Shown: one piece after another, positions 9,200-36,261 of the stretch
How the letters are laid out: every line of letters starts with the position of its first letter
How positions within the stretch are numbered: position 1 is the first letter of the stretch
Assembly (NCBI GenBank): GCA_944384305.1
Contig: CALWSW010000003.1
Coordinates: 1 to 43,153 of the forward strand
Source of the DNA: an uncultured Christensenellaceae bacterium
GTDB lineage: Bacteria > Bacillota > Clostridia > Christensenellales > CALWSW01
Direction: 5' to 3'
Length of the DNA: 43,153 nt
Program-made: the position numbers and the translations under genes
The notes under the pieces: generated by a model
Databases searched by the model: none
The model's input: only the letters and a program-made list of their open reading frames with translations
What the model was told of the DNA's origin: nothing

Positions 9200-9275
9200 G
9201 GGGCATTAGCACAGTTGGTAGCGCGCATCGTTCGCATCGATGAGGTCAGCGGTTCGAATCCGCTATGCTCCACCA
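9200..9275 (+). tRNA. tRNA-Ala, anticodon CGC
   Basis: The 76-nt sequence folds as a full cloverleaf. The acceptor stem GGGGCAT/ATGCTCC includes the G3-U70 wobble pair that identifies alanine tRNAs. The anticodon arm is CATCG-TTCGCAT-CGATG, giving anticodon CGC (codon GCG), and the T arm is AGCGG-TTCGAAT-CCGCT. The CCA end is encoded. Prophage genes begin about 120 bp downstream, so its 3' half is the likely phage attachment site. Confidence 0.96.
9250..9275 (+). other. Candidate left attachment site (attL) in the tRNA 3' end
   Basis: Everything left of the tRNA is chromosomal and everything right of the following terminator is phage. Tailed phages commonly integrate into tRNA T-arm/3' ends and restore the gene. 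The matching right copy would lie beyond the window, so the core cannot be delimited here. Confidence 0.4.
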
Positions 9276-9355
9276 TTCTCTGCACATGCGAACATTCAGT
9301 TGTGTTGTACATGATAGATGGGATGTTCGTACTGGAGTTTCCGTTCAAGGGAAGC

Positions 9356-9390
9356 AAAAGACCCTCGGCCAAGTAAGCCGAGGGTCTTTT
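9356..9390. terminator. Bidirectional terminator at the chromosome-prophage border
   Basis: A perfect 13-bp stem (AAAAGACCCTCGG at 9356-9368 pairing with CCGAGGGTCTTTT at 9378-9390) with a 9-nt loop has A and T tracts on both sides. It can end the leftward late phage transcript after the gp10-like gene and also stop rightward tRNA transcription. Confidence 0.85.
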
Positions 9391-9395
9391 GTGTA

Positions 9396-9908
9396 TTATT
9401 GGGGTTCCATCCTTTGCCTGATCGCTTTATAGATCTTCCGCTTAACGCGAGCTTGCTGAGTATCTTTCATTCGTTTCACAGCTCTTTTGAGCACAAAATG
9501 TCCTCTGACATATCCGCCCGGTGGACCGACATACATTCCTCCGGCAGGATCGCCACGATTGTATACAAAAGTATGTCCTGCCCAGTGTCCGGGTACGAAG
9601 TGACTTCGAAATCCATACTCAAGGTGCTTCGCGTAATCCAGGTTGTTATAGACGCGGATGAAGTAGCGGTTGCCGCTTTGCCTGGCTGTCTTATCCGACT
9701 TCCAGTTGCGCCGGTAGTCGCCGGTATTGACGATACCGGTCTTCCGGCGGCCGGGCTCGCTCAGATCGGTCGTGCAGATCTTGCGCGCCTGGCCAACGGC
9801 ATACATCCCCTCGCTCACAGCGATTTGGCCAATGATGTTGGGCGCGTCTTCTTGTAGCCGGGTCAATCTTTCGATATAATCCCGCAACTCCTTTGTGTTG
9901 ACCGCCAT
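9396..9908 (-). CDS. HK97 gp10 / XkdI-type head-tail connector protein, displaced to the prophage end
   Basis: The 170-residue protein has the gp10/XkdI signature: a helical N-terminus and TGDYRRNWKSDK. VYNNLDYAKHLEYGF follows, then a GHFVLKRAVKRMK helix. Proteins of this family act in head-tail joining or tail completion. The start at 9908 is chosen because the long upstream extension of the frame runs over the holin gene in another frame, and the domain begins at this Met. It is the last gene of the leftward late operon, 2 bp after the holin, next to the terminator and attachment site. Its usual place is between the XkdH- and XkdJ-like genes; see findings. Confidence 0.8.
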   Translation of the reverse strand: MAVNTKELRDYIERLTRLQEDAPNIIGQIAVSEGMYAVGQARKICTTDLSEPGRRKTGIVNTGDYRRNWKSDKTARQSGNRYFIRVYNNLDYAKHLEYGFRSHFVPGHWAGHTFVYNRGDPAGGMYVGPPGGYVRGHFVLKRAVKRMKDTQQARVKRKIYKAIRQRMEPQ

Positions 9909-9910
9909 AT

Positions 9911-10195
9911 TTATTCCTTTGTGGCCCGCGCCGCCGTCACGCCATCGAATGCGCCATTGGCGGCCAAACTCACCACCACGGCGTTGATGAACGCAAGCCC
10001 GGCCGTGGACCAGTTGAGTTCCCCCGCCACCGCCGCAGCGGCGATGAGCACAACGAGCGCCACAATGTAGCTGGTGATGCGGGTCGGGATCCGCTCGATC
10101 CACCCGATGCCCTTGATGAGCTGGGTGATGAGGGTGACGGCCAGCGTGGCGCCGGCGTAGGTGCCCAGGGCGCTCCAGGTGAAGAATTCTTCCAT
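9911..10195 (-). CDS. Phage holin
   Basis: This is a 94-residue protein with two or three hydrophobic segments: about residues 8-27 (ALGTYAGATLAVTLITQLI), 42-60 (SYIVALVVLIAAAAVAGEL) and 65-83. The tail is short and charged. Holins form membrane lesions that release or activate the endolysin at the timed end of infection. Size, topology and position just after the lysin and a second small membrane protein support the call. No family-specific residue can be cited. Confidence 0.75.
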   Translation of the reverse strand: MEEFFTWSALGTYAGATLAVTLITQLIKGIGWIERIPTRITSYIVALVVLIAAAAVAGELNWSTAGLAFINAVVVSLAANGAFDGVTAARATKE

Positions 10196-10210: not shown

Positions 10211-10525
10211 TTATTTAATCAAATGATCGGCGGCTTGTTCGTTCAAAAAATGATAGTACGCCTCTTTGGCGGTCTCGTAGTCTGCAACAGCCTCTTCCAC
10301 CTCACCATTGGGCTTGCCGCGCTTGATGGCCATAGCGCAGGCGTAGGAGAGCTTGGCGGCGGCCATGGTGACCTCTAAATTGAGGAGCGATTCCTGCTTG
10401 CGCGCGGCGGCGTGGGCCTCGCTGGCCCGGTCGCGCCGCTTTTGCGCCCTTTGGAGATAATACGCTGCGCACGATGCGATGACGCTGGGCAGCAGCCCTA
10501 GCAGAAATGCTGTTACTTCACTCAT
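10211..10525 (-). CDS. Small membrane-anchored coiled-coil protein of the lysis module
   Basis: The 104-residue protein has one N-terminal hydrophobic segment (residues 5-24, TAFLLGLLPSVIASCAAYYL) followed by a charged, Ala-rich helix (QRAQKRRDRASEAHAAARKQ) likely to form a coiled coil. It lies between the lysin and the holin, 12 bp after the former. The position fits an antiholin, holin partner or spanin-like role, but Gram-positive hosts need no spanin and I do not recognise the family. Confidence 0.55.
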   Translation of the reverse strand: MSEVTAFLLGLLPSVIASCAAYYLQRAQKRRDRASEAHAAARKQESLLNLEVTMAAAKLSYACAMAIKRGKPNGEVEEAVADYETAKEAYYHFLNEQAADHLIK

Positions 10526-10537
10526 CCCACCACCCCC

Positions 10538-12274
10538 TCAGTACTTCCAGCGGGCCTTCGTGCCCCGCACATCCACATGGACGATATAGCGTGCGCCGTA
10601 GCCCACGCCGCCGGAAACGTTCATTTTAAGGGCGATCTCTTCCAGGTGATCTCGGATTTCGGCGTCGGATACTCCGTCGCATTTGCCGAAGATATCCGCC
10701 GCGCGGCCGAATTTGTGCTGGGAGCCTGATGCCCCGCCCCGCTCTTTGTTCCACTGCTCGCAACGCTGGCCGCCGGCGATGGCGCCATCGCGCGTTGGTT
10801 CCGCACGGCAGGTCACGTACAGCCTCAGCCCAGGGTACTTCTTTTCTGCCTCCCGCCAGATGCGTTCGACCAGGAGGCGCACACCGGCGGTGCTGGCGTT
10901 GGGGTACCCGTCGCAGTACTTGTTGCACTGGCACTCCATGTCGGCCTCAGTCAAGCGCGGGGTGATGATCCCGCTTTTTAAGGCCGCCCAGGTCTTGGGC
11001 CCGGCAATGCCGTCCGCTGCAAGACCCATGGCCGCCTGGAACTGCTTCACCGCCTCTTTGGTCTTGGGGCCGTTCTTGCCGTCGATCTCCCCAACGATCG
11101 CCCCGAAGCCCCAGTCGGTCAGCGCCTGCTGCACGCCCTCGATGGTCTCCGGCCAATCGGTAGGGATGTCGGGGTCTGCAGGCTGCTCAGGCCCGTCGGG
11201 TGGCTCGGTGAGGTAGCTCGCCTTGATCCAGCCGCAGGTGCCGGTGCCGACCAGTGCCCGTTCGCCCTGGCGTTGCAATACCGTCACGATATCGCCATTA
11301 TAGAGGTAGCCGACCTTATCGCTCTTGGTATCAGCTTTGGCTCGTACGATGAGCGCATTACCCTCAGAGACGCCGGAGATCATCTTCTTTTCCTGCACTG
11401 GGTCCTCCTTCCCGTCATTCTTGTCGTTGCCGCCGTCATCCTCCCCAAAGTCATCCGGCAGCTCGACCCGTGGGATGAGGTGCAGCCCGGAGGGGCACTT
11501 GACCTCGGCAGGGGTGGCGTGGTCCATCAGGTAGGCGTAAGCATCGGCCTCGCTGATCTCCGGCCAGCGGGAGAGGATGAGGGCCATCATGCCGGCCACG
11601 GCCGGGGAGGCCATGCTGGTGCCGCTGAGCACGCGGTAGCCGCTCCCGGCGTTTTTGCAGCTGATTACACTGCTGCCGATGACGCAGCAGTCGGTGAGCG
11701 CTCCCCAGCAGGAAGAACTGTCGTTCATTTTCGAATTGCTTTTTAAATTTGCCACCACGATGGGGCTTTCATAGTCCGCCAGGGGCGATTTTTCGTCGGA
11801 ATCATTGCAGGCAGCCACTATAACCGGCACATTGCTGGCTACGAGATCATCTATCTCTGTCATAATGACCGGCCTGTCCGTTTCGCTGAGCGAGATATTG
11901 ACGACCAACCGCTTCTCGGGATGCTCGCTATGCCACGCTTTGATCTGCTGCAGCGCCTGGACAACGCTGCTGTTGCTCCCCGCGTTGGCAGCCCCATCCG
12001 TGACTTTGAGCGGCAATATTTCCGCGTCTGGTGCGATGCCGTACACTGCACCAGCAGCGATGCCCGCCACGTGCGTGCCGTGCCCGTAGGGGTTCACATC
12101 ATTGGTCGGCGTATTCCCGCGGATCGCCCAGCCATCTGTGCGCACGGACAAGTCCTCGTGCGGCCACACCCCTGTGTCGATCACCGCGATCACGACGCCC
12201 TTCCCCGTCACCCCGTGCTGGTGCCACTTTTCCGCCCCCGTAAACTCCCGGGGGATATTTCCACTCAGTGCCAT
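10538..12274 (-). CDS. Chimeric endolysin: subtilisin-like S8 protease, SH3, peptidoglycan-binding and M15 peptidase domains
   Basis: The 578-residue protein joins four domains. Residues ~1-270 are an S8 subtilase with an apparently complete catalytic set: Asp33 in IDTG, His65 in GHGTHVAG, oxyanion Asn157, Ser220 in SGTSMASP. An Asp/Glu/Lys-rich linker spans ~273-297. An SH3-like domain covers ~300-356 and a PG_binding_1 repeat ~376-434 (DGKNGPKTKEAVKQFQ; DGIAGPKTWAAL). The C-terminus is an M15 metallopeptidase with zinc ligands His520 and Asp527 (SQHKFGRAADI) and His566 (VHVD). The M15 part would cut stem peptides in host peptidoglycan. There is no signal peptide. The S8 partner could activate the enzyme, cut wall proteins or process a phage protein. 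It sits between the radical SAM gene and the small membrane genes. Confidence 0.9.
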   Translation of the reverse strand: MALSGNIPREFTGAEKWHQHGVTGKGVVIAVIDTGVWPHEDLSVRTDGWAIRGNTPTNDVNPYGHGTHVAGIAAGAVYGIAPDAEILPLKVTDGAANAGSNSSVVQALQQIKAWHSEHPEKRLVVNISLSETDRPVIMTEIDDLVASNVPVIVAACNDSDEKSPLADYESPIVVANLKSNSKMNDSSSCWGALTDCCVIGSSVISCKNAGSGYRVLSGTSMASPAVAGMMALILSRWPEISEADAYAYLMDHATPAEVKCPSGLHLIPRVELPDDFGEDDGGNDKNDGKEDPVQEKKMISGVSEGNALIVRAKADTKSDKVGYLYNGDIVTVLQRQGERALVGTGTCGWIKASYLTEPPDGPEQPADPDIPTDWPETIEGVQQALTDWGFGAIVGEIDGKNGPKTKEAVKQFQAAMGLAADGIAGPKTWAALKSGIITPRLTEADMECQCNKYCDGYPNASTAGVRLLVERIWREAEKKYPGLRLYVTCRAEPTRDGAIAGGQRCEQWNKERGGASGSQHKFGRAADIFGKCDGVSDAEIRDHLEEIALKMNVSGGVGYGARYIVHVDVRGTKARWKY

Positions 12275-12289: not shown

Positions 12290-13534
12290 TCAGTCTCCTG
12301 TGATCGCTCTGATCTCATCGGCCGTCAGGTTGAGCGGGAACTTTTTGCCCTCTCCATCCCGCTCATAGACCTGGTCCCAATAATAGGCGTTTGCCAGTAC
12401 CCGCGCTTTGTGCATGGGACAGATGTAGGTCGCGCGCCTGTTTGGAGTGCCAAAGACCTCGTAGTTGTGTGCGCTGCACCACGCGCAGCCCGAAGCCACG
12501 GGGCAGCAGAAGCACTCGTCTGTTGATTGCGACCGGCGGGTGATGCTTTCCAGCTCCGCGATCCTCTGCCGGTGCTCAGCCGTTGTGCCGATGCCCGTCC
12601 ATATGTCCCCGATCACATACGGCTCGCGAGAGACCGACATGGGCGTGTACCGCAGGCAGGGGTAGATCCTGCCGTCCACGTCGATGGCGAGCATTTTCCC
12701 CGTGCCGCCGCACCAGTTGCCGTTTTCTTCCGGCGGCAGAGGCTGCCCGATCCAATCGTCAAACAGTGTGTTGCGCAGCCCCGGATGTTCCAGCAGGTAA
12801 TCCGCCAGACGAAGCATTTCGCGGTACAGTACACGGGCGTGTTCCGGCTCCCATCCCTGCTCAAATACGCAATTGCAGAAGATCGTGTCCATGCCGAGGT
12901 TCTCATAAAGATTGACGGACGCTTCATACAGGTATTGCAGATTCCCCGGCGCCAGTGTGAACTTGGTGCTGTTTAGGCCGGCAGCTTTGACTGCAGCAGC
13001 GACGCGGTCATAGGTCGGCTGGCCATATAGATCGAATCTGCAGGCGTCGTGGCAGGCCTGGCAGCCATCCACCGTGATGTTGATGTTCAGCCGGCCGGCA
13101 TATTTAAGCAGCAGTTTCTGTACGGCAGGATCAAAGTAGTCCAAACCATTGCTGCAGATCGACATCATATACTGCGTTGCCCAGCGATGCTGTTTTTCGA
13201 GAGACGTCCGGAGAAAATAAGTCATGGTCTCGTCGATCAACCCTGTCTCAAGCAGCGGTTCCCCGCCGATGAAGTCCATGATCAGCCCGTGGGCGTCTTC
13301 GCCGTTGATCCATTGAGAGTGCCGGGCATCTTCTGCAAACAAAAAATCGACGGTTTGCTTTGCCGTCGAAAGACTCATCTTGTCATTGCTTTTGTGCGTC
13401 TCGTAACAATAAGCGCAGCGCATCGAGCAATCGTGCGTGACTACGAAGGTTACGGTTTTTACCCGTTTGTCCCGTCCGTACATGGCCAAATATTTATCCC
13501 CGAAGCCACCCAACGCAACACGGTCACTTTTCAT
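12290..13534 (-). CDS. Radical SAM/SPASM peptide maturase, CXXX-repeat target type
   Basis: The 414-residue enzyme binds a [4Fe-4S] cluster through C36, C40 and C43 (CSMRCAYC) and S-adenosylmethionine through GGEP at 90-93. A C-terminal SPASM region has cysteines at 275, 293, 341, 343, 344, 350, 353 and 372, enough for auxiliary clusters. SPASM enzymes install thioether or C-C links in ribosomal peptides or mature sulfatases. The gene is in one run with a 25-cysteine CXXX-repeat protein, so a RiPP maturase is the best reading. The start at 13534 has GGGGGTGAT upstream and overlaps the preceding stop by 11 bp. It could instead be a generic anSME-like enzyme, but no sulfatase is nearby. Confidence 0.85.
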   Translation of the reverse strand: MKSDRVALGGFGDKYLAMYGRDKRVKTVTFVVTHDCSMRCAYCYETHKSNDKMSLSTAKQTVDFLFAEDARHSQWINGEDAHGLIMDFIGGEPLLETGLIDETMTYFLRTSLEKQHRWATQYMMSICSNGLDYFDPAVQKLLLKYAGRLNINITVDGCQACHDACRFDLYGQPTYDRVAAAVKAAGLNSTKFTLAPGNLQYLYEASVNLYENLGMDTIFCNCVFEQGWEPEHARVLYREMLRLADYLLEHPGLRNTLFDDWIGQPLPPEENGNWCGGTGKMLAIDVDGRIYPCLRYTPMSVSREPYVIGDIWTGIGTTAEHRQRIAELESITRRSQSTDECFCCPVASGCAWCSAHNYEVFGTPNRRATYICPMHKARVLANAYYWDQVYERDGEGKKFPLNLTADEIRAITGD

Positions 13535-13838
13535 ATGCGACGATCACCCCCTTGTAAAAATCCGGTGTGAAGAAAACATTGGGGTCATGTGCCCGATCCG
13601 GTGCTGCACGCTTGACGATCTCGTTGAGCGCAACCTGCCGCTCGGCAAACGCCTGCTGGTACTCGTCTCTGAGCTTGTTGTACACGGGGTCGATGGCAGC
13701 CGGTTCCACGAGACGGGACAGATTCGTGATCAGTACGCGCAAGCCGTCCGTTTCAAAACTGAGTTTTTCCAGGTAGGACATTTGGCTTTCGCCCACCTCG
13801 TATTCGGCTATTTTCTTTCTAAAGCGGTCACAGCTCAT
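13524..13838 (-). CDS. Small helical protein of the radical SAM cassette, possible peptide-modification helper
   Basis: This 104-residue protein is predicted all-helical and charged, with no cysteine cluster and no membrane segment. The core (SYLEKLSFETDGLRVLITNL, then PVYNKLRDEYQQAF) recalls the small helical accessory proteins annotated with CXXX-repeat peptide systems. That resemblance is from memory of the family pattern and unverified. The ATG at 13838 is chosen since it overlaps the previous stop by 11 bp. The longer upstream frame overlaps the 185-residue gene heavily. It also overlaps the radical SAM gene by 11 bp, so the three are probably translated together. Confidence 0.6.
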   Translation of the reverse strand: MSCDRFRKKIAEYEVGESQMSYLEKLSFETDGLRVLITNLSRLVEPAAIDPVYNKLRDEYQQAFAERQVALNEIVKRAAPDRAHDPNVFFTPDFYKGVIVAYEK

Positions 13839-14385
13839 TGATGATGCGGTCCCCCAAATCCACGATGGTGCTATCCAGCGACTTGACGTAATCTGCGATT
13901 TCTTCGATTTCACTGAGATGGTTGGCTAACGCGTCGTTGGCCTTGCTCGCCAAAAGCAGGGTAAGGTAGGTCCGCCCTGCAATGTACCGTAAGATCGGGC
14001 TGCCTTCGTCCGTCGCGTAATACGTATAAAAGTTCGTGTCGTAGTTTTCCTTCGCGTAAAAATCCTGCAGCTTGCGCTGCGCCATCAGGGAAATAAATCC
14101 GTCAAACTCCGTCTGGTCGAATCTGCTGGCTACGGTCCCGAACATTGTGGTAAACACCGTTTTGAAGTCTGCCGTGAAGTTGCCGGCGATGTTTTTGAGC
14201 GCATTGTACGTGGCAAAGCCAAGGGCAAACACTTCGTGCTCGTCCCGTGCTGCGGCAAAACTTTCGATGGCGGACCGCAGCGGCTCGACAATGGCTTCCC
14301 ACCCTGGTCCTTCCGTGAGGCTCACAAGAAAATCGGCCAGGTGAAACACCTGGTCCGGCATCGAATTGATGAAGATATCGAACAT
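13828..14385 (-). CDS. Unrecognised helical protein in the Cys-repeat/radical SAM cassette
   Basis: This 185-residue protein is mainly alpha-helical with many aromatic residues (VFHLADFLVSL, FYAKENYDTNFYTYYATDEG) and no cysteine. There is no signal peptide or evident catalytic motif. A strong AGGAGGGTGCC lies just before the ATG at 14385, 12 bp after the Cys-rich gene. It directly follows the presumed substrate and precedes the helper and maturase genes, so a role in substrate recognition, folding or export is possible. It could equally be a tail-fibre chaperone. I do not recognise the family. Confidence 0.6.
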   Translation of the reverse strand: MFDIFINSMPDQVFHLADFLVSLTEGPGWEAIVEPLRSAIESFAAARDEHEVFALGFATYNALKNIAGNFTADFKTVFTTMFGTVASRFDQTEFDGFISLMAQRKLQDFYAKENYDTNFYTYYATDEGSPILRYIAGRTYLTLLLASKANDALANHLSEIEEIADYVKSLDSTIVDLGDRIINEL

Positions 14386-14397
14386 GGCACCCTCCTA

Positions 14398-15015
14398 TCA
14401 AGTATCGCGATTGACACCAGAGCACGTGTAGCCGCACGCCAAGGAACAGGCTGTTTGACAGCTGCCTTCGCACGTACCGGTACAGCTGCGGCATCCTTGG
14501 CAGCCGTTCCGGCAAGAGTAGTCACAGGTTCCGGTGCAATCGTATTGGCAGGTGTTTCCGCACCCGCTGCAGCCATAACACCCCGTGGAACACGTGCCAG
14601 AGCACCCTTGGCAGCCGCCGGTACACGTGCCCGTGCAGGATGTGTCGCAGCTGGTGCTGCAAGTTGCGTAACAAGCGCCGGCGCAGTTGCCGTTGCAGTC
14701 GGTCGCAGTTTTGTTGTATAAATTCGTCCTCGCCGATAGTATGGTAACAAACGCCGTCATTTCGTCCAGATCTGTTTTGGAGACCGGGCGCGGCATGCCG
14801 GCATCGGGCACCTGCTCGCTGTTGGCGGCCTGCAGTGGGACTGCGTTCTTAGTATAATGCTCCTCATAGACCGGCTGGCCTTCCGCTGGTGTGTGAGCAT
14901 AATCGTAATCTGTGCCGCCATAAGTCGCCAGCGAATCCTGGTACTGCCGCCGCAGCATTTCCGCTTTTACCGCTGCTTTGAGGTTGATAAAATCATCTGG
15001 ATCGATCCTGGGCAA
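14398..15015 (-). CDS. Cysteine-repeat (CXXX) protein, candidate RiPP precursor encoded in the phage late operon
   Basis: The 205-residue protein has two parts. Residues 1-106 are cysteine-free, polar and acidic, ending in DLDEMTAFVTILSARTNLYN. Residues 107-198 carry 25 cysteines: 19 of the 24 gaps are CxxxC and 5 are CxxC, with Gly, Ser and Thr dominating between them. There is no signal peptide. Translation starts at TTG (15015) behind a strong GAGGAGGTGAAAC; no ATG fits. CXXX-repeat peptides matured by radical SAM/SPASM enzymes are a known RiPP-like class, and such an enzyme lies two genes downstream. The N-terminal half would be the leader. Alternatives are a metal-binding protein or a disulfide-rich tail fibre part. 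Confidence 0.8.
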   Translation of the reverse strand: MPRIDPDDFINLKAAVKAEMLRRQYQDSLATYGGTDYDYAHTPAEGQPVYEEHYTKNAVPLQAANSEQVPDAGMPRPVSKTDLDEMTAFVTILSARTNLYNKTATDCNGNCAGACYATCSTSCDTSCTGTCTGGCQGCSGTCSTGCYGCSGCGNTCQYDCTGTCDYSCRNGCQGCRSCTGTCEGSCQTACSLACGYTCSGVNRDT

Positions 15016-15027
15016 AGTTTCACCTCC

Positions 15028-15336
15028 TCACACCAGCACCAGCCGCCCGGCAAACGCTGCGCCGGCGGTCAGGGTCACGTCTCCTGCAGCGTTGATCTCT
15101 GCGGCCCAGTACACATCGGTGTAGGCGCCCCAGGATGTCGTATAGCTGTTGCTCTCAGTTTTTTGGTACACCGCCAGCACAAACGGCGGGGTCTTGCCGT
15201 GCGTCGCGGCAGGGACGCTCATCGTCACGCCGCTGGCCGATGAAGACCAATTGCTCGTTTCAAAATCCAGCGCATATGCTTTCAATGCCGGGTTGGGGGA
15301 CAGCGTGCTGTTGCCGCCCAGTAAAATGCCACTCAT
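15028..15336 (-). CDS. Small tail-fibre-associated protein
   Basis: The 102-residue protein is beta-rich and ends with AGAAFAGRLVLV. Its N-terminus (MSGILLGGNSTLSP) resembles that of the 560-residue fibre gene (AGYLYGGNANLSP), so both may share an attachment motif. It overlaps the upstream gene by 4 bp (ATGA) and is followed 12 bp later by the Cys-repeat gene. No enzyme motif is visible. A minor fibre or fibre-tip role is inferred from position and the shared N-terminus. Confidence 0.6.
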   Translation of the reverse strand: MSGILLGGNSTLSPNPALKAYALDFETSNWSSSASGVTMSVPAATHGKTPPFVLAVYQKTESNSYTTSWGAYTDVYWAAEINAAGDVTLTAGAAFAGRLVLV

Positions 15337-15972: not shown

Positions 15973-17655
15973 TTAGCTTTGCGTGAGGCCGGTATCCACC
16001 CAGCCGTCGGCAGCGACGTAAATGTACACTTTATACGGCGAGGATGTGCCGACCTCGTACATGTCGCCCTGGGCGGGGCTGGTAATGGCCGCCTGCAGCG
16101 CTTCGAGCGAGCCGTACCGTCCCAGCACAGGCAGCTTTTCCTCTTGACCCAACACGAATTGCGGCTCGAACACCGTGTCGCAGATGAGGGCCAAGCGTGG
16201 GTCGGGGGCCCACCCGGTAAAGAAGCCTTTCTTCCAGGTCGGATTGGATGCGGGCGGCGTGGCAAAGGGGTGAGCGGCCGGCAGCTCCTGAACGTCGACG
16301 GGCTCTCCATTGCGATTGGTAAACGTGGCTGTGAAGCTCTGCCGCGCCGCCATGGCGGGCAAATACGTCAGGCGGTAGAAGCACTCCAAGTTGAGGGCCG
16401 AGACCAAACTGAAGATGCCGCCCGCTCCCAGGGGGGTCAATGCTTCGCCGGGGTCGGGCTCGTCCTCGTCCGGGCCTTCCAAGGGGGGCGGGGGATCGAG
16501 CTCGCCGGCGGCGATTTCACTAAGGGCGTCCGCCGCCACAGGCGCAGCCGGTGCGGCCGATACTGCGCCCCAATACAGAGTGAGGTACAACGAATCCCCC
16601 AGTCCGGAGGTGGCGTACTGGTCGGGGATGGCCCCGGCCGCGGCGGCCGTGGCGTTGGGGATGAGGATGCCGGGAATGACCTCGTCTGGCACCAACTTTG
16701 TGATGTAGCCCGAGCCGGTGTCCACATAGGCGGGCTGGTCCACACCGCTCTCGCCGCTCTCCTGCACCACGCCCAGGGGGACGTGGGCAGAAGTCTCGGC
16801 GGCGTTGTCGTTCCAGGGGCTTTCCTTGTAGAGCAGGTTCGTAGTCTCAAAAGCCAGCGTACCCCAAAGGGCGGTGGGGGTTTTGCCCCACAGGTTTTCG
16901 AGCCCCCTGTAAACGCACCAGCCCTCGACCTCGCTGCCGCCCGAGTGGTAGCCCAGGGCGCCGGACTTGCCGTTGATGTCAGTGCCCGTATGGAGCCCGA
17001 CGCTGCACACCGCCGTCTGGCTGTTCCAGTCGGCGACTTCGACGAGGTACAAGAGAAGGATGGTCGCCCAGGTCATAGCGCCAGAAGGGACCCAGCCGCT
17101 GCCGCGCTCGCCGTTCGGCCATGTCGTGGGCAGGGAGATTGACGTGGACTTGGCCGCGGGCGCGCCGGAAGAACGGCCTTCTTTATCCAGAAAGTAAGCG
17201 CTGACGTATGCTTTTTCCTCTCCCTGTTCGTTCCCTGGCACCGGCCGGTGCAGGGGGGAGACTTCTGCGCCCTCGAAGGGCTGGGCCGAAATCCGGATGG
17301 CGAGCTCTGTTTCGCTGTCGGTCACTTTGTAATAGAAGCGGGGGATCTCGACCATCACATCCCCCACATCGGGGGTCATGGTAAAGCCCAGCTCGCCCTC
17401 GTAAGCCGTAACGACGCCGTTTGTTACGTTGCACCGGCGGATGTCTCGGTAGATCGGCCGTGTGTCGAAGCTCGAACTGCCGGTAGTCGTGCCTGAAGCG
17501 GTGATGCGCTGCGGCGTAAAAGAGAATCCCACCGCGTCATCCGTGCGCGTGAGGGTAGAAGAGGCAGAAGCCTTCGTCCATTTGACGCCATAAATGTACG
17601 GCTGTTCGAGCGGCGACAGGTTGGCGTTCCCGCCGTAGAGGTATCCTGCCATCAT
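15973..17655 (-). CDS. Large tail fibre / receptor-binding protein with C-type-lectin- or FGE-like domain
   Basis: The 560-residue protein has an N-terminal GGNANLSP attachment-like stretch and a central domain (~95-370) with VMVEIPRFYYK, ALGYHSGGSEVEGWCVYRGL and ENLWG. This resembles the formylglycine-enzyme/C-type-lectin fold used in phage receptor-binding proteins. A Pro/Asp/Glu-rich linker at ~385-405 follows. The C-terminal fibre segment ends in a VGTSSPYKVYIYVAADGWVD repeat unit typical of phage tail fibres. It should bind the host surface. The gene overlaps the upstream fibre gene by 4 bp. The lectin-like fold is also that of retroelement-diversified proteins, but no reverse transcriptase is present in the window. 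Confidence 0.8.
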   Translation of the reverse strand: MMAGYLYGGNANLSPLEQPYIYGVKWTKASASSTLTRTDDAVGFSFTPQRITASGTTTGSSSFDTRPIYRDIRRCNVTNGVVTAYEGELGFTMTPDVGDVMVEIPRFYYKVTDSETELAIRISAQPFEGAEVSPLHRPVPGNEQGEEKAYVSAYFLDKEGRSSGAPAAKSTSISLPTTWPNGERGSGWVPSGAMTWATILLLYLVEVADWNSQTAVCSVGLHTGTDINGKSGALGYHSGGSEVEGWCVYRGLENLWGKTPTALWGTLAFETTNLLYKESPWNDNAAETSAHVPLGVVQESGESGVDQPAYVDTGSGYITKLVPDEVIPGILIPNATAAAAGAIPDQYATSGLGDSLYLTLYWGAVSAAPAAPVAADALSEIAAGELDPPPPLEGPDEDEPDPGEALTPLGAGGIFSLVSALNLECFYRLTYLPAMAARQSFTATFTNRNGEPVDVQELPAAHPFATPPASNPTWKKGFFTGWAPDPRLALICDTVFEPQFVLGQEEKLPVLGRYGSLEALQAAITSPAQGDMYEVGTSSPYKVYIYVAADGWVDTGLTQS

Positions 17656-18560
17656 TCTACCTCCGATCCGCCGGCGGAAGTTTCAGCCACCGCCTTGCAG
17701 ATCTCGTATTGCAGGGTAATAGCCACGTCGTGCTGGCGGTCGCTGCGCAGCAGGAAGGAGCCGTCCGACGTCTCAATATAGGCGTGGATGGTCTGCACTT
17801 CAGCGATCGAGCCCATGTCGGCTGCCAGCGCCACCACCATGTCGGCCGCGCCGACGTCGGCATCCGTCACGGTGCGTTCAAACCAGTAGTACCCGTCCTC
17901 CGGTTCCCCTTCTGTCCATCCTTCTGCGGGGATGGTGCAGGTTTTGCAGATGCTGCCGCCGCCAGTCCCCATGTCTTGCAGCGCCTCTGTCAACGAGCCG
18001 CCGTTGTAGGTGACCTGGTCGGTCGTGTGCGTGTGGGTCTTTGGCGCGGCGTACTCGGTCAGGTCGGTTTGTGTCACATAGCTGCCCGCACCGATTTCGA
18101 TGGTAATGGCAGCATCCTCTTGATTGGTCGCCAGCAGCGCGAGTTCGTGCAGGTGGATGCTGTCGCCTGAATCAACCGCCGCTGGCGCTGGCACGGGCAG
18201 AATGTTGTCGCTGTCGCCGCCGTCCAGCCAAGCATAGGCAAACAGGTATTCGCCTTGCTCTTCATCCTGGGCGAAAATGCCGATCTCCCGGACTGCTGCT
18301 GGTGCGGTCAAATGGGCGTTGGTGATCTGCACCGGTATTTTGATATAAGGTGGGGAGACGTTGGCAATATACTCTTTTTCGCCCAGCTCTGCGTCCACGC
18401 CATCCAGCGGGCTGATGAGCGCGCTCAATGCGCCCTGGTCTCTCTGGCAGATGCCGTCGCCCACGGCCGCTTTGGTCAATATGAGCTGCGCGCCGGCAGC
18501 AATGGCAGCGGTCAGGGCCGCTGCGCCCTGATCGGTAATGGTAGATTGATAGCGCGCCAC
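17652..18560 (-). CDS. Tail fibre protein, P2 gpH-like N-terminus
   Basis: The 302-residue protein begins MARYQSTITDQGAAALTAAI and has LTKAAVGDG in its first 40 residues, the baseplate-binding region of P2-type tail fibres (DUF3751-like). It continues with an ITNAHLTAPAAVREIGIFAQ segment and a THTHTTDQVTYNGG metal-binding-like collar strand near residue 180. The C-terminal third is beta-rich. It would attach the fibre to the gpI/XkdU-type protein encoded just upstream, one base away. Confidence 0.85.
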   Translation of the reverse strand: MARYQSTITDQGAAALTAAIAAGAQLILTKAAVGDGICQRDQGALSALISPLDGVDAELGEKEYIANVSPPYIKIPVQITNAHLTAPAAVREIGIFAQDEEQGEYLFAYAWLDGGDSDNILPVPAPAAVDSGDSIHLHELALLATNQEDAAITIEIGAGSYVTQTDLTEYAAPKTHTHTTDQVTYNGGSLTEALQDMGTGGGSICKTCTIPAEGWTEGEPEDGYYWFERTVTDADVGAADMVVALAADMGSIAEVQTIHAYIETSDGSFLLRSDRQHDVAITLQYEICKAVAETSAGGSEVE

Positions 18561-18561
18561 A

Positions 18562-19092
18562 TTAGCTCCTTTCCCCGGGCTGGTGTTTGTGCGTAACCAT
18601 GCCGGGCGTCAACCCCGACGCACAGATGAGCACCGGCTGCGTGAGTTTTTGGCGAATCGCCGTGCGCAGGATCCACAGCAGATTCGCGGGGATCATCTGC
18701 TGCAGCGTTGCTTGCAGATCCTCCCGCTGCGAATCTCCTTGCAGTTCAACGTCGATTTGGATGCGGTAATCCTCAAGCACTGCGCCTGCTTTCGGGTCGA
18801 TCGACTGCAAGTAGGACAGCAGCGTGCGCCAGGTGTAAGGCAGATGGTTGAGGTATTTGATCAGGATGCGTTCCCGCCGGCCTTCCAATGTGTCCCCAGG
18901 AGCCGCTGTAAGACCCAGGATCGCTTCCCAGCGCTCACAGCCATACTCGGATAAGCTGAGCAAGAAAAAGTCGTCTGGTGCGCTCCGGATGTCCTGGACG
19001 GCTTGCGCGTACTCCGGCTGTTCGGCATCGGCTATTTGGCCGAACTCGAACAGATTTTGTAAAAATCGCGGCCAATATTCTTTAAGCTCCAT
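18562..19092 (-). CDS. Baseplate/tail protein, DUF2313 (XkdU / gpI-like)
   Basis: The 176-residue protein reads ELKEYWPRFLQNLFEFGQIA and DIRSAPDDFFLLSLSEYGCE, followed by WEAILGL, the YmfQ/XkdU pattern. These proteins join the tail fibre to the baseplate wedge, as gpI does in P2. It overlaps baseplate J by 11 bp and the fibre gene follows directly. Length is typical. Confidence 0.85.
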   Translation of the reverse strand: MELKEYWPRFLQNLFEFGQIADAEQPEYAQAVQDIRSAPDDFFLLSLSEYGCERWEAILGLTAAPGDTLEGRRERILIKYLNHLPYTWRTLLSYLQSIDPKAGAVLEDYRIQIDVELQGDSQREDLQATLQQMIPANLLWILRTAIRQKLTQPVLICASGLTPGMVTHKHQPGERS

Positions 19093-20293
19093 TGGTCACC
19101 TCTCCCAGCACTGGTATTTCTTCGGCCGCCAGCGGAATGTTCGCGGTGCCGCCGTTGATGGTCGTGCCCTGGATATCGATGATCCCTTCTACATTCAAGA
19201 TGGCCGTTTCTATTTGACTGACGCGGACGATCAGGCTGTCATTGTCCGCCCAGGTCTGGGTCAGGCCGTCGAAATAGGACTGGATCGCTGCTTTGACCGC
19301 TGTTTGCGCAGTGCTCCACGACGCCGGTTCGGAAAAGGTCAGCACAAAGGTAATGTCGATCGTTTTCCCGGCGACGCCGGCGACCGTAACGACATGGCCG
19401 ATCGGGGCAACGCCCACGCCTTCCCCCTTCATCCCCACCGGGTCGACCGCCTCCTGCACTTCCGCGACCAGTTCGGCAGAAGGGACAGACCATTCGCTGT
19501 CCACCAATACGATGCGGACCGCGCCGCCCACCGTCAGCTTCCCGTCCGCAGCCGCAGCATAAACTTTCGCAAGCCATGCTTTGATTGCGTCCGCTGCTTC
19601 CACAGATGTCATCCAAGATTCCGTCCCCTCCGGGGGAATCAGTTCAGCGGGGCGAATATCGCCATTCCACACGGGAATGACCTTTACCTTCCCCACGCCC
19701 GGCAACAATTCGACTTTTGCTTTATAGTCGGCAATATTTCCGCCATATGCCTGGGACTCGAGCGATGCAAAGTAACGTTCGCGCAGCGCCTCGTCGCTCT
19801 CCTCGTCCTCCCCCGGAATAAGGATGTCCGAAAGTGTTGCCGCCGCCAGATCGGGCACATAATCGATGGGGAACAGCGTGCCGATATACTCGTTTCCGGC
19901 CGCGCCGGGCGTCTCCGCTGTCACCCGGTATTCGCTTGACGTGATCTTTTCCGCAACTGCAAAATTCAGGTCACCGCCCGAAAAGCGTGTTCCAATGGGT
20001 ACGTTACAGCCTGATCCATCGGCTTTCGTCAGTATCGCTTTTCTGACTGCACAGGTCGCGGCCACCCGGAAGACGCTTCGCTCACGGCATTTCTTCGTCA
20101 GGTCTTCGCCGGTCTCGGTGTCCGGGAACGCCCTGTCCAGCAGATAGGCCAGCTCAATATACAAGACTGCCAGCTCTGCCGCAGCAGGGGCGACAGCGTC
20201 GTACATGATCGAACCCTCGCGCTTGTCTAGGGAGGCGGAGATTCTGGCCATACAGCGCGCCATGATGTTTTCGAAGGTCATGTTCTCATACAT
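19082..20293 (-). CDS. Baseplate J / gp47-like wedge protein (XkdT)
   Basis: The 403-residue protein starts MYENMTFENIMARCMARISA, followed by DKREGSIMYDAVAPAAAELA, the Baseplate_J/XkdT signature. It continues through CNVPIGTRFSGGDLNFAVAE and GAAGNEYIG to a C-terminal GVAPIGHVVTVAG part. It forms the wedge of the contractile-tail baseplate together with the gp25-like protein encoded before it (8-bp overlap). Length and order match PBSX. Confidence 0.93.
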   Translation of the reverse strand: MYENMTFENIMARCMARISASLDKREGSIMYDAVAPAAAELAVLYIELAYLLDRAFPDTETGEDLTKKCRERSVFRVAATCAVRKAILTKADGSGCNVPIGTRFSGGDLNFAVAEKITSSEYRVTAETPGAAGNEYIGTLFPIDYVPDLAAATLSDILIPGEDEESDEALRERYFASLESQAYGGNIADYKAKVELLPGVGKVKVIPVWNGDIRPAELIPPEGTESWMTSVEAADAIKAWLAKVYAAAADGKLTVGGAVRIVLVDSEWSVPSAELVAEVQEAVDPVGMKGEGVGVAPIGHVVTVAGVAGKTIDITFVLTFSEPASWSTAQTAVKAAIQSYFDGLTQTWADNDSLIVRVSQIETAILNVEGIIDIQGTTINGGTANIPLAAEEIPVLGEVTNGA

Positions 20294-20714
20294 TGGCCTG
20301 GACAGTCCTTTCTATGTGGATGCTGCCGAAGATGGTGTTGGCGGTGAACGCGACCCGCGCCGTCCGCCGGTCGAGCCGCTCGACCGTAAAGTCCGCTGTG
20401 CCGGTGATCCGGCTGTCGGCCAGCAGCGCTTCCGTTATGACGCGCTTGATCTCGCTCTCGAACACCGCATAACTTTTCCCCATAACCGCGTTCCACTCCA
20501 CGCCGTAGTCCCATGAATAGATGTAATAATGGAAGCGCTCTGTCGAGAGGATCTTGAAGATCGCCTGCTTCATAGCTTCGGTTTCGTCGGTAAAGCCGGC
20601 GACGCGGCCGGTATCAAAATTCACCTTGTAGGTTTTTGTCGGCTGTTCGGCCGCCGGCTGGATCTCGATGCCCTGCCCAATGGGCGCTCCGGCTGAATTT
20701 GGGATCAATGCCAT
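20286..20714 (-). CDS. gp25-like baseplate protein, DUF2634 (XkdS)
   Basis: The 142-residue protein has KTYKVNFDTGRVAGFTDETE, then AIFKILSTERFHYYIYSWDY, ending in SIHIERTVQA, as in the DUF2634/XkdS family. Its equivalent in T4, gp25, helps trigger sheath contraction. It sits between the XkdR- and XkdT-like genes in the usual order. Confidence 0.88.
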   Translation of the reverse strand: MALIPNSAGAPIGQGIEIQPAAEQPTKTYKVNFDTGRVAGFTDETEAMKQAIFKILSTERFHYYIYSWDYGVEWNAVMGKSYAVFESEIKRVITEALLADSRITGTADFTVERLDRRTARVAFTANTIFGSIHIERTVQANV

Positions 20715-33561: not shown

Positions 33562-34833
33562 TCACTTCAATATCGAAATGGACGGGCCGCGCCGCAGCCG
33601 CTCTACGCTGTAGCGCAGCGCGGCCATGGCGTCGTCCATGAACTCGACAGGCTCATCTATGTAGAGTCCCGTTGCTGGGTCTTTTTTCCACTTCCACTGC
33701 TGCGCTTCCTTGATCGTGTTCACGCAGGAGGGGTGAATGTGGATCTTCCGCCCCTTCAAAAAGTCGATCTGCGCCTTCACGCTGCCCGGATCCTTTTTTA
33801 CTGCGCGGGCACGGAAGCCAGCCTTCTGCCAGGTCTTGATCCGGTCTGGTTCCGCCGAATCGCACCACATTTCAGTCTTTGGGTCAATGCCTGCGCTTTT
33901 TGCCATGCCGATGATCTCGCCGGTGTCCTTCTCAAAGCAGTACACTTCCGATGTGATGTACAGTTCTCCATCCTTCCATCCAACGCCCAGGATGGCGTTC
34001 GCGTGGTTGTATCCGAAGTCCTGGCCATAATAAAAGGCATCGAAGCAGTTCCGTGCGGTCGGGAAGTCGTGGATCTCGTAGTTCGTCAGAATCAGGCCGC
34101 CCAGCTCTCCCCATTCGCCCAGGCCATAAATTCGATAACCTTCCGGATCTTCGATTTTGCGGCGCTCCATGCGCCTGTAATAAGCAGGATCGATAAACCG
34201 ATTATCGCGATATGTGGAATGATGCGTCAGCACGTCCGGGTCTGTGCGGTCAAAATACCGGGCCTTGATCCAATGCATCGAACTGACCGGATTGAAGGTC
34301 ATCGTAATCTGGTAGTACAGGTTGGGGTTGATGCCTGCAAGATCGCCACGCAGGCGGTCGTCGAGAATGTCTGCGTCCTCTGGCAGCAGCTCGGTCGCTT
34401 CTTCGCACCAGATCCACACCAGTTTGCCATTTTTGAATGTGATGGACTTTACTTTCTCGCGCTGGCGCTGGTCCTTCACGCCCCGGAAGATGACCCGGTT
34501 CCCAGTGATTCGGCATTCCAGCGCCAGTGGGTTCAGATTGACTTTCCACGCCCGCTCGGCAAAAGGTCCAAACATGCGATAGATCGCCGCCTGCAGCTCC
34601 GCGAACGTGCTGTCCCGGTTGGTCTCCTCGATCTTGCGGACAACCAGCAGGTTCGCGCCGGCATAAGAAGGGTCGGACAGTTTGGCAATGTAGTCCTGCG
34701 CGATGTTGACGGACTTCCCACTGCCCGCAGAGCCTTTTAGGATGCGGTATCTGCCGCGCCACTCATTGACAGGGCGAAAGACGGGATTGAACCGCGCCGC
34801 CGTGTTGATTTTAACTTTCGTCTCCGTAATCAT
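33562..34833 (-). CDS. terL: Terminase large subunit
   Basis: The 423-residue packaging motor has Walker A GSAGSGKS (34-41) and Walker B-like KLVWIWCEEATEL with the catalytic Glu. The C-terminal RNase H-like nuclease has YGQDFGYNHANAILGVGW, MWCDSAEPDRIK and a late MDDAMAALRYSVERL helix. It cuts and pumps DNA into the head through the portal. It overlaps terS by 23 bp. PBSX/SPP1-type sequence suggests headful packaging. Confidence 0.96.
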   Translation of the reverse strand: MITETKVKINTAARFNPVFRPVNEWRGRYRILKGSAGSGKSVNIAQDYIAKLSDPSYAGANLLVVRKIEETNRDSTFAELQAAIYRMFGPFAERAWKVNLNPLALECRITGNRVIFRGVKDQRQREKVKSITFKNGKLVWIWCEEATELLPEDADILDDRLRGDLAGINPNLYYQITMTFNPVSSMHWIKARYFDRTDPDVLTHHSTYRDNRFIDPAYYRRMERRKIEDPEGYRIYGLGEWGELGGLILTNYEIHDFPTARNCFDAFYYGQDFGYNHANAILGVGWKDGELYITSEVYCFEKDTGEIIGMAKSAGIDPKTEMWCDSAEPDRIKTWQKAGFRARAVKKDPGSVKAQIDFLKGRKIHIHPSCVNTIKEAQQWKWKKDPATGLYIDEPVEFMDDAMAALRYSVERLRRGPSISILK

Positions 34834-35376: not shown

Positions 35377-36261
35377 CTATTTATTTGACACTATAAAGTC
35401 ATTGCCAATCCATCGTTTTGCGCCTTTCAGCCTGCCCATGCTTTCCGCGCCCGAAGAGGCTAAAATTTCGTAGATCGTTCCCGGAGTATCGTACAAAGTT
35501 GATTTTTCAATAGGCTTGTTATAACACCTCAAATCTTTCACAAGAGTAAGGAATTTATCCTCATTCAAACGTGGGTCAGCAATGATCCTATGGATAAAAT
35601 CTAAGTTGCTTAAGGGAAGATAGGCTCCCTTTCCGTCCTCTGCTAACGTCAATGTGCTATCTGGATTAATTGTTTTCCAATGCATCGGCGCATAAATCAA
35701 AAAACGGATTTCGCGTTCGTGTTCAAAAGCTTTGCGCTTTATAAAGGGCGATACCATGTTTCTCGGATATCGCTGGGACTCCACGTCAAAAAAGCACTCT
35801 CCATCAGGAAGGTTCAATTGTTCATACCGAACAGGACCTATAAATCCGTCAGCGTATCTATTGTTGCGAAACGAGAAATCAATCGATTGAAACAGCTTCC
35901 TCGGCGTCGTTTCGATGACGAGCCCATCTTTGTCGGGCCCTGAATAAATCCGCCATAACGCGTCAGAATCTACCGTGTCTGTCCAGCACATGCCGAAAAG
36001 GTTGTTGTCATCGACTTCGTGACAAATTCTTGAGTCAAGATTCAATAATTCATTCTGCTTCTCTGGATTATCCTGCGGTGCCTGTAAGTAGCGAGACGGG
36101 TTTTCCCATGTGTCTTCCCATTCGATCACTCTGCGTAAGTATAGGGCCCGTCTACAAAAGAGATCTTCCAGATAATTTTGTTTGATGCAGTGATAAATCG
36201 GTTTGTCTACATCCAACTGCTCATGCACAAAAAAGCCACTGTGCATCATCTTAGCCAACAT
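35377..36261 (-). CDS. DUF2971-like cargo (moron) protein
   Basis: The 294-residue protein fits DUF2971: LFGMCWTDTVDSDALWRIYS, GLVIETTPRKLF and the ending PFIKRKAFEHEREIRFLIYA. The family's function is not established. Its codons are clearly AT-richer than the genes on both sides. An AAGGAGG precedes the ATG at 36261; a dyad with a TATAGT box lies upstream and a terminator lies just downstream. A stand-alone, differently composed gene between the early operon and terS has the form of a phage moron expressed in the lysogen. A defence or host-fitness role is inference. Confidence 0.75.
   Translation of the reverse strand: MLAKMMHSGFFVHEQLDVDKPIYHCIKQNYLEDLFCRRALYLRRVIEWEDTWENPSRYLQAPQDNPEKQNELLNLDSRICHEVDDNNLFGMCWTDTVDSDALWRIYSGPDKDGLVIETTPRKLFQSIDFSFRNNRYADGFIGPVRYEQLNLPDGECFFDVESQRYPRNMVSPFIKRKAFEHEREIRFLIYAPMHWKTINPDSTLTLAEDGKGAYLPLSNLDFIHRIIADPRLNEDKFLTLVKDLRCYNKPIEKSTLYDTPGTIYEILASSGAESMGRLKGAKRWIGNDFIVSNK

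Follow-up and report, generated by a model that had tools for sequence, protein, structure and literature searches.

The DNA analysed here, called the window, is the whole stretch of 43,153 nucleotides (nt) of contig CALWSW010000003.1 (assembly GCA_944384305.1) from an uncultured Christensenellaceae bacterium; it is a prophage contig of a 2.07-Mb draft genome, and the prophage is of gut type. Four tightly packed genes at 12290-15015 on the minus strand code for a protein with regularly spaced cysteines (Cys), two helical proteins named h1 and h2, and a radical S-adenosylmethionine (radical SAM) enzyme with SPASM cysteines. The original prediction, made from the letters alone, had described this set, with 25 Cys within 92 residues of the first protein and Cys gaps of 4 (CxxxC, 19 times) or 3 (CxxC, 5 times), and all of this was confirmed. 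The features of the set are:

14398-15015, minus strand: CXXX-repeat Cys protein P0002, 205 amino acids (aa), presumed substrate; TTG start; phrog_6085, E 3e-7
14698-15015, minus strand: N-terminal three-helix domain of P0002, residues 1-106, phage-specific (AlphaFold2)
14422-14697, minus strand: CXXX/CXX repeat region of P0002, residues 107-198, 25 Cys (from the sequence; AlphaFold2 confidence <50)
13828-14385, minus strand: h1, all-helical protein, 185 aa, phage-specific partner (AlphaFold2)
13524-13838, minus strand: h2, small helical protein, 104 aa, predicted CXXX-helper homologue; ATG at 13838, overlapping the end of h1
12290-13534, minus strand: predicted radical SAM/SPASM CXXX-repeat maturase, 414 aa; TIGR04115, phrog_1802
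13406-13429, minus strand: radical SAM CX3CX2C motif of the maturase (C36, C40, C43), from the sequence; invariant in the alignment of relatives

Judged by its sequence, the enzyme is a CXXX-repeat maturase of the TIGR04115 family, as had been proposed. It reached 398 bits against this NCBIfam model, with a cutoff of 350, and covered model positions 2-359 of 359. Identity as a sulfatase maturase was ruled out by score (53 bits against a cutoff of 349). The SPASM cysteines C275, C293, C341, C344, C350, C353 and C372 are conserved in the enzyme, and its radical SAM and SPASM cysteines are nearly all invariant among 20 relatives. No other enzyme above the TIGR04115 cutoff was found among relatives from the host's order.

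The reading frame of h2 was taken from the ATG at 13838 and not as a 129-aa open reading frame (ORF) starting with GTG, since its homologues have 94-113 aa. There was no direct match of h2 to NCBIfam models, TIGR04116 included. When 17 phage h2 proteins were compared as a profile with 13 chromosomal TIGR04116-type proteins by hhalign, they aligned over 89 columns with a probability of 97% and an E of 1e-10, so that h2 is, as far as profile comparison can tell, distantly homologous to TIGR04116, the helper of CXXX systems. With this match, the cassette has counterparts of three members of the known system, namely maturase, helper and substrate. A gene for the second maturase TIGR04119 was not found between the Cys protein and the lysin; TIGR04119 is present in the chromosomal cassette of locus L041. 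For h1, the AlphaFold2 model is all-helical with a mean predicted local distance difference test score (pLDDT) of 59, family libraries gave no match at cutoff, and a fold search matched nothing reliably. The h1 slot is also filled in L040, L168, L169, L174, L190, L193, L197, L281 and L289.

The Cys protein starts with TTG, preceded 7 nt upstream by the ribosome-binding site GGAGG, and the ribosome-binding sites of both the Cys protein and h1 are good. In 20,000 composition-preserving shuffles of its Cys stretch, gaps of 4 averaged 2.6 and never exceeded 10. At the DNA level, in-frame CXXX patterns of six in a row occurred 5 times in the window versus 0 times in 100 dinucleotide shuffles. Among 78 phage relatives, 74% of the Cys gaps are of 4 and 21% of 3; the X positions are mainly Ser, Thr, Gly and Asn, and acidic residues are rare, with Asp plus Glu at about 6% per position. 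In P0002, the Asp plus Glu fractions at X1, X2 and X3 are 0.16, 0.00 and 0.05, and the fourth residue after a Cys is nearly always another Cys. CXXX-repeat peptides are a RiPP-like class (RiPPs are ribosomally synthesized and post-translationally modified peptides), and the curated models of their substrates, TIGR04114 and TIGR04117, gave no match above cutoff for P0002: only the latter matched, with 13.7 bits against a cutoff of 50. The relative P0006 lies above the TIGR04114 cutoff (21.3 vs 20).

AlphaFold2 modelled residues 1-100 of P0002 as a confident three-helix domain (pLDDT block means 73-93) and gave the repeat no confident structure. A profile of this N-domain matched 60 ORFs across all collected loci, 59 of which are Cys-repeat proteins; the sixtieth is a fragment (L276) directly followed by CXXX repeats. 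Profile search and locus comparison showed the domain to be absent from chromosomal CXXX peptides. It is N-terminal in most Cys proteins and C-terminal in those of L178, L189, L191, L268, L272 and L321, and since it is found at either end, it is not a classical leader. No structure in PDB matched the domain below E 1; in BFVD the only matches were a viral protein without a name and about as long (E 1e-6) and, more weakly, a protein of an uncultured podovirus. Closely related Faecalibacterium prophages share the N-domain and differ in repeat length (247 vs 362-367 aa), which is what a length-variable rod would predict. In L173, L175, L254, L255, L257 and L259, the cassette codes for a neighbouring pair of Cys proteins. 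The shorter of the pair has the N-domain and 11-18 Cys, the longer has 44-96 Cys and no N-domain, and they may be an anchor and a chain.

The late genes of the prophage run on the minus strand from the terminase (33562-34833) through portal, tail sheath, tail tube and tape measure to the baseplate, tail and fibre genes; the cassette comes next, followed by the lysin and two holin-like genes. A reading of the cassette as a chromosomal contaminant was ruled out by this terminase-to-lysin gene run and by the recurrence of the cassette. The flanking features, in the direction of transcription, are:

20286-20714 and 19082-20293, minus strand: baseplate wedge genes
18562-19092, minus strand: tail protein
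17652-18560, minus strand: tail (collar) fibre protein, upstream flank; phrog_7037 tail fiber, E 9e-25
15973-17655, minus strand: fibre-like tail protein, upstream flank; phrog_5302 tail protein, E 2e-34
15028-15336, minus strand: small virion-associated protein directly upstream of the Cys protein; phrog_10468 virion structural protein, E 5.5e-8
10538-12274, minus strand: lysin-like protein, downstream flank; subtilase S8, SH3, PG_binding_1 and Peptidase_M15
10211-10525, minus strand: holin-like small protein; phrog_9428 (unknown function), E 1e-10, and weak holin matches
9911-10195, minus strand: holin-like small membrane protein; phrog_18218 and a weak holin match

From 15336 down to the lysin, the genes are separated by gaps of 12 and 12 nt, overlaps of 11 and 11 nt and a gap of 15 nt, and there is no excess of promoter-like or terminator-like sites in the cassette region.

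A scan of IMG/VR with the single sequence P0001 gave only one distant match; an alignment query, used instead, yielded 80 loci. Each of the 31 viral loci whose enzyme match was below 1e-80, the window included, has a CXXX protein: 29 of these proteins were located within 5 kb by a simple scan, and those of L171 and L198 after rechecking of frames and contig ends. In the usual phage block, the Cys protein (155-650 aa) is followed by h1 (about 170-200 aa, sometimes absent), h2 (about 95-115 aa) and the enzyme (about 430-470 aa). The human-gut phage MT835573 (L040) carries the identical four-gene order directly after a tail gene, with an enzyme 37% identical to that of the window. In the relatives, genes upstream of the block match tail-fibre, collar and tail families of PHROGs, and genes downstream match its endolysin and amidase families; the gene immediately upstream matches tail-fibre or tail families in 7/9 relatives tested, and a virion structural family in phage SPN3US. 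The Cys protein keeps its position in the tail module. The proposed location between tail fibre genes and lysin therefore holds for many phages, and the four-gene order is not unique to one genome.

Some of the enzyme genes have further peculiarities. Inteins (Hint plus LAGLIDADG) lie inside the CXXX radical SAM genes at L185:2362-4737, L193:8780-11170, L200:4825-7212 and L229:8837-11179. Other radical SAM genes contain in-frame stops of one kind only, at most 8 per gene: TAG in L179, L183, L184, L186, L188 and L192, and TGA in L206. This single kind of stop suggests that stop-recoded phages carry the cassette. In four of these loci with TAG in the enzyme gene (L183, L184, L186 and L188), no CXXX protein was found on the DNA at hand.

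In a scan of 84,980 species genomes for named hosts, cassettes of the phage type were found in Neglectibacter timonensis, Anaerobacterium chartisolvens, Eubacterium pyruvativorans, Desulfosporosinus, Desulfocucumis palustris, Gemmiger formicilis, Faecalibacterium and Vallitalea, and cassettes of the chromosomal type in Anaerococcus, Peptoniphilus, Bacteroidota and others. Plasmids gave no match. Tail markers accompanied 26/33 phage-type and 0/31 chromosomal-type loci of at least 10 kb in these genomes (Fisher p 7e-12), a consistency check and not an independent test, because the markers were taken from the window and its relatives. Two supposed tail markers from L168 had been dropped beforehand, since they matched chromosomal loci without other phage genes. 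Taken together, it is very likely that a CXXX-maturase cassette has been built into phage tail modules.

The phage form is set apart from the chromosomal CXXX systems (NCBIfam TIGR04114/04115/04116/04117/04119), with which it shares the TIGR04115-type SPASM enzyme, a TIGR04116-like helper and a Cys at every fourth residue. In a tree of 84 enzymes, built by a quick method without bootstrap, the 56 rows of phage type group in one clade (SH-aLRT, a likelihood-based branch support, 98) apart from 23 chromosomal rows, and the window enzyme sits close to its counterparts from A. chartisolvens and N. timonensis. The original prediction had called such systems usually chromosomal, a description that needs to be amended for this distinct and diverse phage clade. 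Chromosomal systems have a Cys protein with a twin-arginine translocation (Tat) signal, or tiny Cys peptides adjoining a 725-aa enzyme. The phage block, in contrast, has the additional h1, lies in a tail-to-lysis operon and is without a TIGR04119 partner; its substrate carries the phage-only helical domain, is usually 155-650 aa long versus 55-175 aa, and has no Tat signal. On sequence grounds, the phage enzymes represent a diverse clade within a known maturase family, and their presumed substrates have an architecture specific to phages.

More distant relatives were also found beside tail genes. In L236, the genes for Dit, a minor tail protein and a radical SAM enzyme are directly followed by that for a CXXX protein with an FN3 fusion; in L239, a protein with 131 Cys lies between the PAAR tip protein and baseplate J; and in L240, a Cys-repeat protein lies within a gp25 baseplate operon together with several radical SAM genes. 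A raw DNA scan of viral contigs for TGY at every 12 bases gave mostly chance or simple-repeat matches and did yield the jumbo-phage relative L144. The isolated lytic jumbo phages SPN3US, phiEaH2, CR5 and Wellington have two CXXX ORFs each, and EarlPhillipIV has at least one. These ORFs have on one side a virion structural protein, which follows baseplate/fibre paralogues, and on the other two radical SAM genes, in most cases near an endolysin, and they are kept beside baseplate/fibre genes across several lytic jumbo-phage genera. In SPN3US, gp168-170 belong to the virion proteins and are candidates for baseplate or fibre parts (PMC5694885; PMC10052503), and gp163 is the SPASM gene. The CXXX ORFs at JN641803 143191-144220 and at NC_021531 ~136.2-137.0 kb are missing from the GenBank annotation, or the gene annotated there is read in another frame (SPN3US_0166) or from the other strand (CR5_157). 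The corrected SPN3US ORFs lie on the complement strand of JN641803 at 143828-144220, 143413-143817 and 143191-143397. Other types of Cys repeat (TCDCNYC, CETGCEVSC) adjoin other radical SAM families on phage contigs (L216:11104-12198, L240:5265-6305, L239:1591-3438), which suggests that radical SAM enzymes were recruited repeatedly for Cys-rich phage proteins.

Starting from the enzyme family, the helper homology, the repeat, the gene order, the tail/lysis neighbourhood, the phage clade and the substrate domain, all of them observed, we consider it probable that the four genes form a phage-adapted CXXX maturation cassette making a radical SAM-modified tail component, cross-linked or otherwise. 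Gene context and fusions point to a product located in the virion. The N-terminal helical domain would dock the Cys protein to the tail fibre or baseplate, and its C-terminal part would form the CXXX chain. During late gene expression, the SPASM enzyme and the TIGR04116-like h2 would act on this chain, most likely by forming intramolecular thioether-type links at many Cys, and h1 would probably chaperone the substrate or tail assembly. The linked chain could become a stiff, protease-resistant rod or tip element, with a putative adhesive or mechanical role, and would then be mounted on the tail. Since dozens of unrelated phages carry the cassette in the equivalent position, these results suggest that many phages harden a tail part by radical chemistry. 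The broader claim, which we regard as evenly balanced, is that of a widespread class of tail appendages in unrelated myophages, siphophages and jumbo phages, in which a Cys-repeat protein anchored by a helical domain is covalently hardened by a phage-encoded radical SAM enzyme, several radical SAM families having been recruited independently. Of the three functions originally suggested, a tail-fibre or tip part is favoured, and release as an antibacterial, though still conceivable, has no positive support.

Several points weigh against the proposed tail role. Presence in the virion and modification of the phage CXXX proteins are inferred. The protein h1 is poorly conserved and its model is of low confidence. 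The enzyme of the jumbo phages is only distantly related and stays below the TIGR04115 cutoff, with 125 bits. The gap between tail and lysis genes is also a usual site of lysogenic cargo genes. In addition, gp163-166 go unmentioned in the main texts of the SPN3US virion proteomics papers; in several of the jumbo-phage records, however, these ORFs have no annotation or a wrong frame, which may explain the lack of a report. The type of bond cannot be taken over from PapB, because acidic acceptors are rare in the phage repeats.

The PapA/PapB ranthipeptide system (NF047865) likewise pairs a SPASM enzyme with a Cys-rich substrate and is the second-best family for the window enzyme, with 148 bits, which is below its cutoff of 340. 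PapB joins Cys to Asp/Glu (PMC9413430), but P0002 does not show the pattern of Cys-X3-Asp/Glu acceptors. The SCIFF and CcpM systems (TIGR03974, TIGR04068) also consist of radical SAM/SPASM maturases of Cys-rich peptides; the window enzyme scored 83-87 bits against these models (87 for SCIFF, cutoff 425), whose cutoffs are 425-500. Both systems are chromosomal and their substrates are short. Covalent hardening of a phage particle after translation is known from HK97, where autocatalytic isopeptide bonds form in the capsid and no radical enzyme takes part; the hardening proposed here is alike in being covalent and post-translational, but would concern the tail and a radical enzyme.

Among the other explanations, the one that survives best concerns the chemistry and is compatible with a tail role: the Cys repeats might bind metal or iron-sulfur clusters, or the enzyme might carry out epimerisation, C-C bond formation or hydroxylation. 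We hold this to be a serious though clearly minor possibility. No description of TIGR04115 chemistry was found in the literature searched, and the rarity of PapB-type acidic acceptors also speaks for it. On the other hand, the nearest other NCBIfam families are maturases of thioether-forming ranthipeptides, of SCIFF and of Cys-rich peptides, and cross-linking is our best guess because the nearest enzyme families form thioethers.

It is unlikely that the cassette is lysogenic cargo (a moron) serving the host, for example with a surface, metal-binding or redox protein made from the prophage. Its fibre-to-lysis position and the chromosomal CXXX systems of the host lineages would fit, but the genes overlap without a promoter excess inside the run, the phage enzymes form a clade separate from the chromosomal ones, Tat signals or short peptides mark the chromosomal versions, which lack the phage N-domain, and the cassette is also found in lytic jumbo phages. 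About as unlikely is a factor for assembly or host takeover that is modified and does not stay in the virion. The main text of the SPN3US papers does not name the product as a virion protein, as this explanation would have it; however, the annotated gene sets lack the CXXX ORFs or have them in the wrong frame, and the Cys region is poor in Lys and Arg and therefore gives few tryptic peptides. Least probable of all is a RiPP with antibacterial or toxin-like action that is made late and freed by lysis to act on competitors, since, although the cassette adjoins the lysin and Cys-rich peptides modified by radical SAM enzymes are often bacteriocins, the block has no immunity, protease or exporter gene, the proteins are large (up to 145 Cys) with a dedicated folded domain instead of a short core, a related protein carries the FN3 fusion, and the genes are kept beside baseplate genes in lytic jumbo phages.

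Secreted natural products and cofactors are the known settings of radical SAM chemistry on peptides. We found no report of such chemistry building a virus particle in the open-access literature, and no description there of phage CXXX or tail RiPP systems; subscription papers and preprints lie outside this search. If the preferred reading of a modified tail component is true, it would add a radical-formed covalent fibre to virion biology and make available many new SPASM enzymes whose natural substrates are long. It would also account for an unexplained pair of PHROGs families: phrog_1802 (radical SAM) is classed as 'other' and phrog_6085 (Cys protein) as 'unknown function', and neither is tied to tails or to the other. 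It is directly testable in isolated phages, as the SPN3US-type CXXX proteins lie outside the gene models and existing virion mass-spectrometry data can be searched again.

Further observations concern other parts of the window. The lysin at 10538-12274 has an unusual architecture, with subtilase (S8), SH3, PG_binding and M15 peptidase joined in one protein. An HK97-gp10-like gene (PF04883) at 9396-9887 follows the holin-like genes instead of lying in the head-tail connector region, and at 9354-9392 there is a strong terminator-like hairpin. A tRNA-Ala gene at 9200-9275 lies about 120 nt beyond the end of the prophage late genes, and its region is a candidate attachment site. Lastly, a DUF2971-like ORF at 35377-36261 is located between the replication initiator and the terminase.

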